From Candidatus Thorarchaeota archaeon (lineage in GTDB: Archaea; Asgardarchaeota; Thorarchaeia; Thorarchaeales; Thorarchaeaceae), in contig JAUVHR010000003.1 of the NCBI GenBank assembly GCA_030593165.1, positions 1 to 35,620 on the forward strand: 35,620 nucleotides of DNA, in the 5' to 3' direction. The position numbers were made by a program, and so were the translations under genes. Positions within the stretch are counted from its first letter, which is position 1; each line of letters opens with the position of its first letter. Shown here in pieces: positions 360-34,995 of the stretch. The notes beneath the pieces were generated by a model. That model saw nothing but the letters and a program-made list of their open reading frames with translations. It was not told where the DNA came from and did not search any database.

Positions 360-659
360 TTAGAGGCGAACCCACTGTGCATGTGGGTGCCCGTCTATGA
401 AAACAACAGCTTTCTCATGTATATATCCCGCACCGATGGCGGACTCCACGGTAGTCTTTCCCACCATATTGACTATGGTGGCCTTTTCTAGGTGAGGAAG
501 GCATTGGTCAAACTCCACGAGATCGCCTCCGTAGAACTCCTTACTGACCGTGAATTTCACGTCACCCTTGACCAAGGTCTGCCCTAGAAGGTCCTCATCA
601 CAGAGGGCCACAAGGTAGTGGTCGTGAGTTTTGCGAACACGCATATAAACAGGGGACAA
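360..659 (-). CDS. DUF424 family protein
   Basis: A small conserved archaeal protein of unknown function. The signature MRVRKT near the start, LVALCDEDLLGQT, and EFYGGDLVEF followed by ATIVNMVGKTTVESAIGAG match the DUF424 family, and the length (94-99 aa) is as expected. Two starts compete. TTG at 659 has GAGGTG eight bases upstream. ATG at 644 (MRVRKT) matches the usual family N-terminus but has no clear ribosome-binding site. I chose TTG on the strength of the Shine-Dalgarno. It lies just downstream of aIF2-beta on the same strand (16-nt gap with the TTG start), consistent with co-transcription, so a role in translation is a reasonable guess from context only. Confidence 0.85.
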   Translation of the reverse strand: MSPVYMRVRKTHDHYLVALCDEDLLGQTLVKGDVKFTVSKEFYGGDLVEFDQCLPHLEKATIVNMVGKTTVESAIGAGYIHEKAVVFIDGHPHAQWVRL

Positions 660-675
660 TATGAAACCACCTCAA

Positions 676-1089
676 CTAAACAGGTCTAATTGATGTTCTG
701 GCACCACATGCAGTACAGTGCATATAGTATGCGGTTCCCTCACGTAGAATGCTAGTATCAGGGCGAGTACAGACTGGGCAGATGACATAGGAACTGATAT
801 ACCGGTTGAGAACCTCAATAACGTTTTCTGTAACGAATTTACCTTGGAAAACGGCATTGTTGCCCTCAAATGTGCCACCAGTAGCCAGTTGGCCTGCTAC
901 GAACTTCAGGACCTCCTTCCCTGGACGGTTCAGAATAGTGATTATCTCCTGAAAGTTCTGCCAAATAGTACGGGTACCCTGAATCATCAGCTGTACGGAG
1001 GGAACCTGGAATCGTTCTCCAGATCTCTTGAATGCGTCTTCAGGTATCTGTGACCTTGCTCGGTCCAAGAGGCTGTCGTAGTCGTCCAT
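676..1089 (-). CDS. Translation initiation factor aIF2 subunit beta
   Basis: Beta subunit of the archaeal initiation factor 2 heterotrimer, which delivers Met-tRNAi to the small ribosomal subunit. The 137-aa length is normal. The order is a helical N-terminus contacting the gamma subunit, a central alpha-beta domain (RFQVPSVQLMIQGTRTI, then GKEVLKFVAGQLATGG), and a C-terminal zinc ribbon with CPVC and CTAC at about residues 104-131. The ATG at 1087-1089 has GAGGTT upstream at suitable spacing. It sits between the RPA-like gene (50-nt gap) and DUF424 on the minus strand. No missing residues or frame problems. Confidence 0.95.
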   Translation of the reverse strand: MDDYDSLLDRARSQIPEDAFKRSGERFQVPSVQLMIQGTRTIWQNFQEIITILNRPGKEVLKFVAGQLATGGTFEGNNAVFQGKFVTENVIEVLNRYISSYVICPVCTRPDTSILREGTAYYMHCTACGARTSIRPV

Positions 1090-29068: not shown

Positions 29069-29668
29069 ATGAGTGCTCGTAGATTCCTTGTCGTGTTTGA
29101 TTCGCTACCATTGGATGTTACCAGTGTTAGGAAGGGGAGTAACCATCCGAGTGTTGTAACAGCCTCCAGATGTGTCAATGTAGGTCTCTTCGTATCGGGT
29201 GATTTGAGAAGAGATGTGGTTGTCAGTTTTGGTACTGGGCCACACAACGACTTTCGAGTCATCTCATTCTCCGGGGCAGTGCTGAAACGTGTATCTCCAG
29301 ACGAGAGATCGGTTTCGTTATTCCTAATGAAAGCATCTCAAGGAATGTCGGATTTGGAGCGAAATGAGTCAACAAGACTGCAGAATGGTATCCTAATGCA
29401 GAGGGCGAGCATGACTTCACTCCTAGAAGAGTGGGATGTCCCCAGAACGTATATTTCTGCATCAGGTTTTGGTCTAAAACAAGCACCCATAGGAGAAAAT
29501 TCAGAAGGGCTCTTCATCTATGAGATTCCAGAAACAAGTAACATTCAAACTCTTTTGCATGACCAAGTGATTCCATTGGACCGTCCGAAGACCCCGGAAA
29601 GATTTATCCTCGCGGTGAATCTTGCGGCAGACCAGACAGTTTCAGAGAACAGAAGAAAATCTTCTTAA
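29069..29668 (+). CDS. trmY: tRNA pseudouridine-54 N1-methyltransferase
   Basis: A SPOUT-fold methyltransferase that converts pseudouridine 54 in the T-loop to N1-methylpseudouridine, using S-adenosylmethionine. The conserved block TASRCVNVGLFVSGDLRRDVVV, then ISFSGAVLKRVSPDERSVSLFLMKA, is the signature of TrmY (DUF358). The C-terminus has GLFIYEI and an irregular tail that is rather long for the family. The 28-bp gap after srp54 suggests co-transcription. Three consecutive genes here (this, a GTPase and trmJ) concern RNA or ribosome maturation. Confidence 0.85.
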   Translation: MSARRFLVVFDSLPLDVTSVRKGSNHPSVVTASRCVNVGLFVSGDLRRDVVVSFGTGPHNDFRVISFSGAVLKRVSPDERSVSLFLMKASQGMSDLERNESTRLQNGILMQRASMTSLLEEWDVPRTYISASGFGLKQAPIGENSEGLFIYEIPETSNIQTLLHDQVIPLDRPKTPERFILAVNLAADQTVSENRRKSS

Positions 29669-29720
29669 TACTACACTTCCAAAGAAGGATGAAGATTCTT
29701 TGAACAAGGCGTGACCTCAA

Positions 29721-30896
29721 TTGCCGACCAATGTTACCCCCGAATTCGATAGACAAAGGCAAATCTATGAGGACACTGAAGACCTTCCACAGAGGATTGT
29801 CGAGCTTCAGAAACTGTTGTCGCTTGCACCCAGACACAAAGGTGCAGAACGCATGCGTGGGAACTACCGCAAGAAGCTAGCCGTACTGAAAGCGCAGCTT
29901 GAGAAAGAAAGAGAACGTGACCGGGCCAGAAGAGGGGGTGGCTCCGATGAGGGGGTCGTAAGGAAGGAAGGGGCAGGGCAAGTATGCTTAGTTGGGGTCA
30001 CGAACAGCGGCAAATCCTCTCTGATTAATGCGGTCACTAATGCTGAACTCACTGTTGCTGATTATCCCTTCGCAACTGCAATTCCAACACCTGCCATGAT
30101 GATTCTAGAAGACATCAATATCCAATTAGTTGAACTACCAGGCATATTTGAGGGTAGCCATGAAGCTGGCATTGGACGGCAAGCGCTTTCAGTTGCGAGG
30201 AACACCGATTGTATCGCACTTGTAATTGATCTCTCACGGGACATAGAGCCACAGATGACGGTCATTCTCTCAGAACTTGACCGTGCAAGAATCCGTCTCA
30301 ACAGAGAAAAGACTGCAGTCAGAATTGAGAGGGTTGGTTCTGGAGGTCTTCAAATCTACGGAATACAGAATTTCGATGGCACTAAGGAGGAAGTCTTTGA
30401 ATACCTAAGAGCTCGTAAGGTCAACAACATTATCGTCCGCTTCCAAAAGCATACAACGTTCCAGCAGCTTGCGGATGCAATGGATGCAAGTGTTGTGTAT
30501 GTTAGAGCCATGGTCATTGGTACAAAAGGTGACGCACAAGGATCAATCGAACGCTTTGAAGAACTAGAAACAGAGTACAGTGAAAGGTTTGACATTGTAC
30601 CGACTTCGGCGCTCAAACAAGAGAATCTTGATCTAATGAGTTGGGCGATTTATGAACATCTAGACATTCTCAGAGTATATACAAAGATACCCGGAAGGAA
30701 GCGAGAACGTAGGCCGATTGTCTTACCTGTGGGATCTGTTGTTGAAGATGCGGCTGGCAAAGTACACAAGGAGCTTTTTGTAGAGAGATTTCGGATGGCG
30801 GTCATAATAAGGGAAAAGGACAAGATAAAGAGAAGACAGGTGGGCCTTAGCTACCCTCTTCAAGAAGGGGACATTCTACAGCTCACCCACATGTAG
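29721..30896 (+). CDS. DRG/Obg-family GTPase with TGS domain
   Basis: A 391-aa GTPase, related to eukaryotic DRG proteins that bind ribosomes. An N-terminal helical segment (ELQKLLSLAPRHKGAERMR, KKLAVLKAQLEKERERDRARRGGG) precedes the G domain: G1 GVTNSGKSS at about residues 92-100, switch/G3 ELPGIFEGSHEAG (usually DLPG) and G4 TKGD at about 267, where most relatives have NKxD. The C-terminus, about 325-391, is a TGS domain with PVGSVVEDAAGKVHKELFVERFRMAVII and a QVGLSYPLQEGDILQL end. TTG start at 29721. Deviations at G3 and G4 are conservative, but they may alter nucleotide preference. It follows trmY by 52 bp. Confidence 0.88.
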   Translation: MPTNVTPEFDRQRQIYEDTEDLPQRIVELQKLLSLAPRHKGAERMRGNYRKKLAVLKAQLEKERERDRARRGGGSDEGVVRKEGAGQVCLVGVTNSGKSSLINAVTNAELTVADYPFATAIPTPAMMILEDINIQLVELPGIFEGSHEAGIGRQALSVARNTDCIALVIDLSRDIEPQMTVILSELDRARIRLNREKTAVRIERVGSGGLQIYGIQNFDGTKEEVFEYLRARKVNNIIVRFQKHTTFQQLADAMDASVVYVRAMVIGTKGDAQGSIERFEELETEYSERFDIVPTSALKQENLDLMSWAIYEHLDILRVYTKIPGRKRERRPIVLPVGSVVEDAAGKVHKELFVERFRMAVIIREKDKIKRRQVGLSYPLQEGDILQLTHM

Positions 30897-30927
30897 ATAG
30901 AAGCTCACGAAAACTACACAAGAGGTC

Positions 30928-31668
30928 ATGAAGCTGAGTGGATTTTCAAATCTGTATGTTGTGCTTGTCGATCCTCAGAACCCGGGGAATGTTGGTTTTG
31001 TAGCCAGAGTAATGGCAAACTTTGGAGTGACAAACCTTAGGATTGTAGGCGAGGATATTCGATATAGTCCGCAAGCCCAGATATTCTCAGTACATGCAGC
31101 AGATGTACTAGAGGGCGCAGGAGTTTATGACAACCTCGAGAGAGCATTGGAAGACATAGATGCGGTATGGGTAAGTACTGCCAGAACAGGTAGCAACCAC
31201 AGCGTCACTCGAGTGTTGGTTCCACTACAAGAGCTGCCAGACCCCAACTCTCTAACCGGCAAGGTGGCGTTGGTCTTTGGCAGAGAGTCCACAGGCCTAA
31301 CAAACGAAGAGATTGCTATGTGTGACCTAACTTTCACAATTCCAGCAATGAAATCATACAGAAGCCTGAATCTCAGTCATGCAGTGGCTGTAGTACTCTA
31401 TCAACTCTATACAGATTATGCACCCAAGGAGTCTAGAATACCTACTGAGCAAAGAGCTGCAACATTCGACGAGAGGGAACAGGTCTGTATTTTCTTTGAT
31501 GAGTTAGTTGAACTTACGACCATCAGGGATTTCAGAAAGCCAATCGCTAAGCAGGTCTTCCGGAACCTCTTAGGTCGTGCATATATGACTGGACGCGAGA
31601 TAGCAACTCTTACTGGGACTGTCAGGAAAATCAAACAACTAGTGGACAGCGAGGAGAGTACAGACTAG
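30928..31668 (+). CDS. TrmJ-like tRNA/rRNA 2'-O-methyltransferase
   Basis: A SpoU/TrmH-class SPOUT methyltransferase of 246 aa. Motif 1 (YVVLVDPQNPGNVGFVARVMANFG) gives the ribose-binding Asn, motif 2 is KVALVFGRESTGLTNEEIAMCDLTFTIP, and motif 3 is YRSLNLSHAVAVVLYQLY. The extended C-terminal helices (about 165-246) resemble TrmJ, which methylates position 32 of tRNA. TrmL- or rRNA-type relatives share the same motifs, so the target is not certain. Start ATG at 30928 (32-bp gap from the GTPase). Its stop codon overlaps the stop of rpl10e in the sequence CTAG. Confidence 0.85.
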   Translation: MKLSGFSNLYVVLVDPQNPGNVGFVARVMANFGVTNLRIVGEDIRYSPQAQIFSVHAADVLEGAGVYDNLERALEDIDAVWVSTARTGSNHSVTRVLVPLQELPDPNSLTGKVALVFGRESTGLTNEEIAMCDLTFTIPAMKSYRSLNLSHAVAVVLYQLYTDYAPKESRIPTEQRAATFDEREQVCIFFDELVELTTIRDFRKPIAKQVFRNLLGRAYMTGREIATLTGTVRKIKQLVDSEESTD

Positions 31669-34018: not shown

Positions 34019-34303
34019 ATGTCAAAGAAAGACATCTTGAAGGGCCGAAAGGGCGTCGTAACAAGTTATCGTAGAGGAAAACATCTACAGCATCCAAATC
34101 AGGTCCTTCTCATTTTTGACGGTATTGAATCCAGATCTGAGGCTGCTCCACTCGTTAGTAGACAGGTGAAGTGGACCTCGGAAGATGGTAGAGAAGTCCT
34201 AGGCAAGGTAATTGGGGTTCATGGGAACAGTGGAGCCGTCCGAGCCAAGTTCAGAACCAACCTGCCCGGTCAGGCGATTGGTACTCCGGTCGTTTTGACC
34301 TAG
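34019..34303 (+). CDS. rpl35ae: 50S ribosomal protein L35Ae (eL33)
   Basis: Large-subunit protein of patchy archaeal distribution, shared with eukaryotes. The 94-aa protein has KGVVTSYRRGKHLQHPNQVLLIF, then SRQVKWTSEDGREVLGKVIGVHGNSGAVRAKFRTNLPGQAIGTPV; the -GxxxGxHGNSGxVRAxFxxNLPGxAxG- pattern is diagnostic. The ATG at 34019 has GAGG eight bases upstream. It is monocistronic or followed by the C/D sRNA and a membrane-protein gene. Confidence 0.93.
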   Translation: MSKKDILKGRKGVVTSYRRGKHLQHPNQVLLIFDGIESRSEAAPLVSRQVKWTSEDGREVLGKVIGVHGNSGAVRAKFRTNLPGQAIGTPVVLT

Positions 34304-34310
34304 AACCAAC

Positions 34311-34317
34311 TTTTATC
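34311..34317 (+). promoter_or_regulatory. TATA-like box for the C/D box sRNA
   Basis: TTTTATC is centred 27 bases before the first base of the sRNA terminal stem (34341), the expected distance from an archaeal TATA box to the transcription start. It lies just after the rpl35ae stop. Confidence 0.5.
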
Positions 34318-34340
34318 AACGAATCATCGGAAGTTCACAT

Positions 34341-34412
34341 GGCTCCGATGATGTAGATGGCTATCTGAGGGTTCTCGAACCCAGCGACGAGTCATAGTTA
34401 GACTGAGGAGCC
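34341..34412 (+). ncRNA. C/D box sRNA guiding 2'-O-methylation of 23S rRNA helix 69
   Basis: A 72-nt element with all parts of an archaeal C/D guide RNA in order. The terminal stem is GGCTCC (34341-34346) paired with GGAGCC (34407-34412). Box C is ATGATGT (34348-34354, one base off RUGAUGA) and box D' is CTGA (34365-34368). The small hairpin GGGTT-CTCG-AACCC follows (34369-34382), then box C' GCGACGA (34384-34390, two off) and box D CTGA (34403-34406). The guide before D, GAGTCATAGTTA (34389-34400), is exactly complementary to TAACTATGACTC, found in archaeal/eukaryotic 23S/28S helix 69. By the N+5 rule it would target the A equivalent to E. coli A1913. The D' guide (AGATGGCTAT) has no target I can name. 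The C and C' deviations and the long D'-C' spacer are the weak points. Confidence 0.75.
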
Positions 34413-34449
34413 GCCTAATGCGCACCCGCATCCTTAGAGGACTCGGTCG

Positions 34450-34995
34450 ATGATTGAATTGTTCATCTATTTTGCAGTGTATCTACTAGCAGGGTTAACA
34501 TTGAAGGCGGGTGATGACTTGCTTGATGTACTAGATAGACCGAGTCAGGCCTGGATTCCACTAACCCTGTCAGGCTTCATGTTTGGTTTGTTGATGGCCT
34601 ATTCTCAGTGGGACCTCGTCCTGCTGACCGCTATTATTATCGGGGTGCTGCTCTCAGGAAAAGTGAATCAGTCGCAATTCGTGGCAGGTTTCGTAATGAT
34701 CGGATTGGTTGTCATTCTCAGAGGATTACCAACTATCGATAATCCACTTGGTTGGCTCTCACTGCTGATTATGCTGTTCCTTGCTGCAATACTTGATGAG
34801 AGGGGCAATGATTGGACCGATTCACATGCAACTCCAAATGCAGCGAGGTTCTTTCAGTATAGATTAGTTCTCAAGGTTTCCGCTCTCCTTCTCGTCATTC
34901 CATGGCCAGAATTCCTGTTTAGCGCCCTAGGGCTCTGGGTGTTTGATTTTGGCTATGAACTAGCTGGCGCCATTGTCAAGAGAAGTGCTACATGA
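34450..34995 (+). CDS. Conserved-type membrane protein of unknown function
   Basis: A 181-aa protein with about five or six hydrophobic segments: residues 3-17, 37-50, 56-70, 76-90, 100-114 and 143-170. The start ATG at 34450 has GAGG nine bases upstream. The N-terminal KAGDDLLDVLDRP, just after the first segment, has a cluster of acidic residues that recalls metal-phosphate binding loops (prenyltransferase-like DDxxD), and ILDERGNDWTD lies between two segments near residue 115-126. This is a resemblance only and the function is unknown. Its stop overlaps the convergent radical SAM gene by eight bases. Confidence 0.6.
   Translation: MIELFIYFAVYLLAGLTLKAGDDLLDVLDRPSQAWIPLTLSGFMFGLLMAYSQWDLVLLTAIIIGVLLSGKVNQSQFVAGFVMIGLVVILRGLPTIDNPLGWLSLLIMLFLAAILDERGNDWTDSHATPNAARFFQYRLVLKVSALLLVIPWPEFLFSALGLWVFDFGYELAGAIVKRSAT

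Follow-up and report, generated by a model that had tools for sequence, protein, structure and literature searches.

Helix 69 of the large-subunit rRNA makes a bridge between the ribosomal subunits and is in contact with the A-site tRNA. The locus described here raises the question whether a short element between two genes of a Thorarchaeota genome encodes a guide RNA directed at this helix, as a first-pass annotation of the window (the whole stretch of DNA that was analysed, 35,620 nt) had proposed. We conclude that the element is very probably the gene of a C/D box sRNA and has a promoter of its own, and that its D guide, judged from sequence, directs a predicted 2'-O-methylation of the A1913 equivalent (yeast A2256). 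The direct support for this reading comes from the anatomy of the element, its conservation, covariation both within its structure and between guide and target, the pairing itself, and the fibrillarin and Nop5 genes of the host.

The terminal stem, the C, D and D' boxes, the C'-like box and the upstream TATA-like element are all present where the first-pass annotation had placed them (Table 1). As in archaeal C/D box sRNAs generally, the C and D boxes lie beside the terminal stem, and the C' and D' boxes are internal. The hairpin between the D' and C' boxes was absent from the earlier list of parts; it covaries. A covariance model built from the family (see below) matches positions 34,339-34,416 with 93 bits (E 1e-19), the element's own sequence being among the 27 from which the model was built. 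Single-sequence folding of the element is unremarkable (z -1.37). Rfam gave 0 matches in the window at the gathering score, and the element is unmatched up to E 5. ARAGORN did not find a tRNA in the window, and a scan for sigma-type promoters and terminators returned no relevant match.

Table 1. Parts of the candidate sRNA gene and its two neighbouring genes, in window coordinates.
Feature	Position	Strand	Basis or remark
eL33 (rpl35ae) gene, upstream neighbour	34019..34303	+	PF01247, E 4.5e-20; NF003326 above cut-off
TTTTAT, TATA-like box and probable promoter of the sRNA itself	34311..34316	+	placement kept in family loci
C/D box sRNA gene, whole element from stem to stem	34341..34412	+	sequence and covariance model
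Terminal stem, 5' arm GGCTCC	34341..34346	+	pairs with 34407-34412
C box ATGATGT	34348..34354	+	RUGAUGA with one departure (6/7 match)
D' guide AGATGGCTAT	34355..34364	+	predicted weak target: C1934 equivalent (yeast C2277), helix 71 strand
D' box CTGA	34365..34368	+	exact match in sequence
Hairpin GGGTT-CTCG-AACCC, closing the C'/D' motif	34369..34382	+	4/5 pairs changed on both sides
C' box GCGACGA	34384..34390	+	RUGAUGA with two departures (5/7 match)
D guide TCATAGTTAG, complement of CUAACUAUGA in helix 69	34392..34401	+	T at 34398 opposite the A1913 equivalent
D box CTGA	34403..34406	+	sequence; same CTGA in 34/44 family elements
Terminal stem, 3' arm GGAGCC	34407..34412	+	6 perfect pairs with the 5' arm
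181-aa ORF, hydrophobic, downstream neighbour	34450..34995	+	no Pfam or NCBIfam match

We found the element by DNA search in 27 of 59 genomes, its own included; these are 27 of the 37 genomes of its family and 0 of the 22 from other families. The 27 elements were aligned, and a covariance-type search of the kind that had been suggested for this locus, run with a model built from the alignment (own sequence included), located the element in 44 of 47 family genomes, with no match in G025 (74% complete), G061 (92%) or G034 (67%). The TGA of the C box is unchanged in all 27 aligned elements, and 98.7% of the cells of the terminal stem are paired across 26 distinct sequences. For the terminal stem and internal hairpin together, 96.1% of cells are paired, against 89.4% (sd 0.8) in shuffled alignments, and the helix covariation score is 0.280 against 0.167; for both measures, none of 500 shuffles was as high. 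Shifting the structure by 1-3 columns left at most 51% of cells paired. The core of the D guide, TCATAGTTA, is kept in 43 of the 44 family elements, and the D' box is degenerate in some members (CCGA, CGTA, CCTA, CTTA, CACA); the C' box is degenerate too. A TATA-like box (TTT(T)ATC- or TTTTGAT-like) starts 28-31 nt upstream of the stem in 36 of 41 parsed family loci, 3 of the 44 loci being unparsed. The claim of an unannotated C/D box sRNA at this locus is thereby borne out: the element is conserved, covaries and is without an Rfam match.

The 23S and 16S genes of the host itself are absent from the assembly; the target is present in all 17 of the family's 23S sequences that were compared. All 17 family sequences contain UAACUAUGA in helix 69, which reads CUAACUAUGAGUC in 16 of them and AUAACUAUGAUUC in one (G017). 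The first-pass annotation is supported in its choice of helix 69 as the target and assumed UAACUAUGACUC, so that the last three bases of its 12-nt pairing do not hold: helix 69 lacks the proposed 12-nt string TAACTATGACTC in 17/17 family sequences, which carry TAACTATGAGTC (16) or TAACTATGATTC (one) instead, and the contiguous duplex is formed with CUAACUAUGA over 10 bp. The register survives this correction, the fifth base from box D facing the A1913 equivalent as described. With 10 bp in the relatives' 23S rRNA, the D guide has the length (about 9 nt or more) and the N+5 register of a C/D guide. Of the 44 family elements, 29 have a G at guide position 2, which can pair with C1910; in the other 15 this position would be unpaired if their rRNA has C1910, which leaves 9 bp.

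To rank the target, we scored all N+5 sites of each genome's own 23S rRNA, together with 16S rRNA where present. For 11 of 12 family genomes the A1913 equivalent was the top-ranked site, and for the twelfth it came second; G001 and G021 were left out of an initial 14, the search pattern having failed to extract their element. When the window's own guide is set against the 23S rRNA of its congener G001, the A1913 site scores 23 and is second to a score of 24 at a site 264 nt downstream. This competing site varies among relatives, whereas the guide core does not.

Scans of the phylum place the same guide well beyond this family. A strict pattern, made up of a C box, the D guide and a D box, matched 39 of 227 genomes against 1 match in the reversed control. 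A looser one matched 83 of 227 genomes, which represent 34 of 61 genera; its reversed control gave 11 matches in 10 genomes. On inspection by eye, 16 of 29 families have what look like genuine C/D sRNAs (f1, f3, f5, f6, f7, f9, f11, f13, f14, f18, f21, f22, f25, f26, f27 and f28); the pattern scans showed none in f2, the largest other family, or in f20, f16, f19, f12 and f10. Also by eye, we discarded as chance the looser-scan matches in G078, G087 (two, on C25), G097, G099, G150, G154 and G180, along with second looser-scan matches in f1 genomes (e.g. G031, G059, G067). A further scan, for the D' core followed by D guide and D box, gave 32 loci, 29 of them in genomes labelled Thorarchaeota or Lokiarchaeota. 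We excluded the remaining three of these 32 loci as probably due to chance: L085 of an Acidilobaceae genome, which lacks a C box in place, and, on the host only, L095 of a Dehalococcoidia bacterium and L115 of Neptuniibacter. One f28 genome (G216, contig C746) carries two different candidate A1913 guide RNAs, at 649-711 (-) and 844-905 (+), about 130 nt apart.

Altered helix 69 loops were seen in the four genomes read from f15 and f4. In f15 (L295 of G097, L297 of G099 and L236 of G103) the loop is UAACCAUGA, the 1915 equivalent being C, although PMC2584109 describes this position as universally conserved and pseudouridylated; the patterns used gave no credible A1913 guide in these three genomes. 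In f4 (L227 of G039) helix 69 is UAACUCUGA, the A1916 equivalent having changed to C.

Thirteen families provide both an sRNA and a 23S sequence; for f9 and f22 the two come from different genomes within a single genus. Positions 2-11 of the guide are Watson-Crick paired with rRNA 1910-1919 at 129 of 130 places, and random reassignment of sRNAs to rRNAs did as well in 8 of 20,000 permutations; the families are related, so that combined p-values and permutation counts overstate independence and the true number of independent changes is smaller. The search pattern fixed guide positions 3-9 and 11, and the information on covariation comes from positions 2 and 10. At position 10, T accompanies A1918 of the rRNA in 5/5 families and C accompanies G1918 in 7/8, the exception being f11, where a guide T opposite G1918 makes a G-U pair. 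At position 2, G goes with C1910 in the representatives of f1 and f18, and C with G1910 in 11/11. Among all N+5 sites of 23S rRNA, the A1913 equivalent ranks first in 16 of 17 sRNA/23S combinations from the 13 families.

The D' guides were left free in both pattern scans and can be compared with the rRNA separately. We assigned the D' boxes of the other families by eye and repeated the test without assigned boxes. For 10 of these 13 families, at most 1.1% of 19-nt windows of 23S rRNA score as well as the D' guide's best N+5 site on the helix 71 strand, with predicted pairing over 13 bp in f6, 10 bp in f14, f18, f9 and f22, 9 bp in f13 and f26, and 8 bp in f7, f11 and f25. The sites lie at +32 from A1913 (the G1945 equivalent) in f6, f7, f11, f13, f14, f22, f25 and f26, at +27 in f18 and at +25 in f9; in f3 and f27, where 60% and 28% of windows are as good, this pairing is absent. 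Predicted pairing of the D' guide with the adjacent helix 71 strand in most of the 13 families is new here and well supported, and its strength in ten of them indicates that many Asgards carry a double guide directed at both helix 69 and helix 71. Within f18, a subset (G080, G087, G092; G079, G088, G093) keeps the D guide and has a changed D' guide, and by eye its match to helix 71 is lost. Inserts of 880 nt (L294, G120), 848 nt (L238, G122), 823 nt (L289, G135), 251 nt (L291, G141) and 30 nt (L226, G038) separate helix 69 from helix 71, and with them the D and D' target sites; these are probably rRNA introns.

For the window's own family, the D' guide pairs over 7-8 bp at +21, where 4.2% of windows are as good for the own RNA and 2.7-11.8% for three others; with the congener's 23S rRNA, the own guide forms 7 bp including one G-U. 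The same picture emerged without an assigned D' box, the own RNA being matched by 9% of windows and 6% of shuffles. These values weakly suggest a possible role of the Thorarchaeota D' guide in holding or marking the adjoining strand of helix 71. There is slightly less than an even chance that it has no rRNA target at all and is kept for pairing with the D guide or for a target of another kind, e.g. a tRNA. In single family genomes its pairing with helix 71 is just 6-8 bp and ranks 4th to 37th, position 8 does not track the rRNA, and in the predicted fold AUGGCU pairs with AGUCAU of the D guide. A D' guide without an rRNA target sits less easily with the GGCTA motif, which 42 of the 44 family elements retain (a count for which five mis-parsed rows were read from the alignment and the loci instead), or with the ten other families whose D' guides aim at the same strand over 8-13 bp.

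As expected for a host of archaeal C/D sRNAs, the assembly encodes both fibrillarin (E 7.1e-91) and Nop5 (E 2.9e-68), in adjacent genes on contig C51; tRNA genes were located as well (29 matches). From these parts we infer the steps of transcription, RNP assembly and methylation. The sRNA would be transcribed from its own TATA-like promoter, and its anatomy suggests that the folded transcript would have two k-turns, a terminal one at C/D and an internal one at C'/D' with the hairpin as its cap. L7Ae, Nop5 and fibrillarin would bind it, as in the established pathway; the D guide would then form its 10-bp duplex in the helix 69 loop of 23S rRNA, and fibrillarin would 2'-O-methylate the A1913 equivalent. 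Methylation could instead be absent or incidental if the RNA acted as an rRNA folding chaperone that bridges helix 69 and the helix 71 strand. In most Asgard families tested the D' guides do pair downstream of the D target, at a distance of 21-32 nt, and chaperone roles have been proposed for such double guides (PMC4644070). We nevertheless consider a chaperone of this kind very improbable, since A1913 stands in the N+5 register in 13/13 families (the register being part of the search pattern) and since the host has fibrillarin, which together with that register argues for methylation as well.

The genomic setting bears on a further alternative. The first-pass annotation had pointed to the interval between rpl35ae and the next gene in relatives, and there the arrangement recurs: of 38 family loci examined, 36 have eL33 next to the sRNA and 37 have the 181-aa ORF downstream. 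An element so placed between two conserved same-strand genes could be a k-turn that belongs to the eL33 3' UTR or to the ORF's leader, binds L7Ae and regulates the mRNA, with no part in methylation; binding of L7Ae to archaeal k-turns, with translational regulation, is reported in the relevant part of PMC5539422. This, too, we hold to be very improbable. The TATA-like box is positioned for an independent start, the most conserved part is the guide and not the k-turn alone, and guide and rRNA covary. The same guide also occurs in other Asgard families, where eL33 or the 181-aa ORF is near the sRNA in 0 of 19 loci examined, so that this gene position is not common to other families. That the short motifs are a chance match and no gene exists is contradicted by conservation and covariation and has next to no probability. 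Elsewhere in the window, a SpoU-type RNA methylase is encoded at 30928-31668 and a putative SAM-dependent RNA methyltransferase at 29069-29668; the same plus-strand stretch, 29069-31668, also carries the gene of a GTPase with a TGS domain. All three genes lie a few kb upstream of the sRNA gene.

A methylation guide for A1913 can be compared with known archaeal and eukaryotic systems. Dennis et al. (2015) described 489 archaeal C/D sRNAs in seven species; according to that paper (PMC4644070), helices 68, 69 and 71 are methylation hotspots, predicted sites are dense around E. coli A1912 in hyperthermophiles, and the two guides of a double guide often target nearby sites. The Thorarchaeotal sRNA resembles those RNAs in its two guides and its C/D and C'/D' motifs; the seven species listed there include no Asgard, which the present host is. 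The Thorarchaeotal sRNA also has a covarying hairpin between D' and C'. For Haloarcula marismortui, the relevant passage of PMC2584109 gives Gm at 1909 in helix 69, and a mark at 1913 is unmentioned there. Rfam sR1 (RF01152) has a sub-threshold match to the relative G117 (25.4 bits against a cut-off of 45) and none to the window's element.

By counting along helix 69 to 71 and comparing with the listed yeast sites, we take A1913 to be yeast A2256. On the same count, +32 is yeast Gm2288 and +25 is Am2281. Entries of a published site table give yeast rRNA the marks Am2256, Am2280, Am2281 and Gm2288, and place Am2256 under snR63, as the first-pass annotation had stated. Yeast snR63 and human U46 (Am2256 and Am3739 in those entries, helix 69) thus address the same nucleotide as is predicted for the Thorarchaeotal guide; both are eukaryotic snoRNAs, and the likeness to the Thorarchaeotal RNA considered here is that of the target nucleotide. 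A guide that is dictated by its target and so short cannot show common descent with snR63/U46. The proposal of an Asgard guide with the same target as the eukaryotic snoRNA accordingly holds, through the 13-family pairing and the published snR63 site, as far as the predicted target is concerned.

Eukaryotes serve the helix 71 sites with separate snoRNAs, whereas Asgards carry the helix 71 and helix 69 guides on one RNA. The site of yeast snR75 (Gm2288) is equivalent to the D' target of eight other Asgard families (+32) and that of snR13 (Am2280/Am2281) to the D' target of f9 (+25), with plant and human U15 grouped among these equivalent-site snoRNAs; unlike them, the weak predicted target of the Thorarchaeota D' guide lies at +21. 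One possible history, which we regard as rather unlikely, is that a double guide in the Asgard ancestor marked A1913 and helix 71 (G1945 or A1938), that eukaryotes inherited both marks and split the guides onto snR63/U46 and snR75/U15, and that Thorarchaeota kept the first mark and drifted on the second. An Asgard A1913 guide that is often coupled to a helix 71 guide offers concrete candidate modification sites for testing whether eukaryotes took over their rRNA methylation from the archaeal host, and its broad occurrence in Asgards is useful for tracing the origin of eukaryotic ribosome marking. In yeast, the joint loss of several helix 69 marks has many effects, as outlined in the relevant part of a review. 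Searches of an open-access library turned up no publication about Asgard C/D guides. Because this kind of RNA and the helix 69 hotspot are already published, a known kind gains an Asgard member; what is added here is that member itself, with its exact register, its family-wide conservation and the recurrent coupling to a helix 71 guide.
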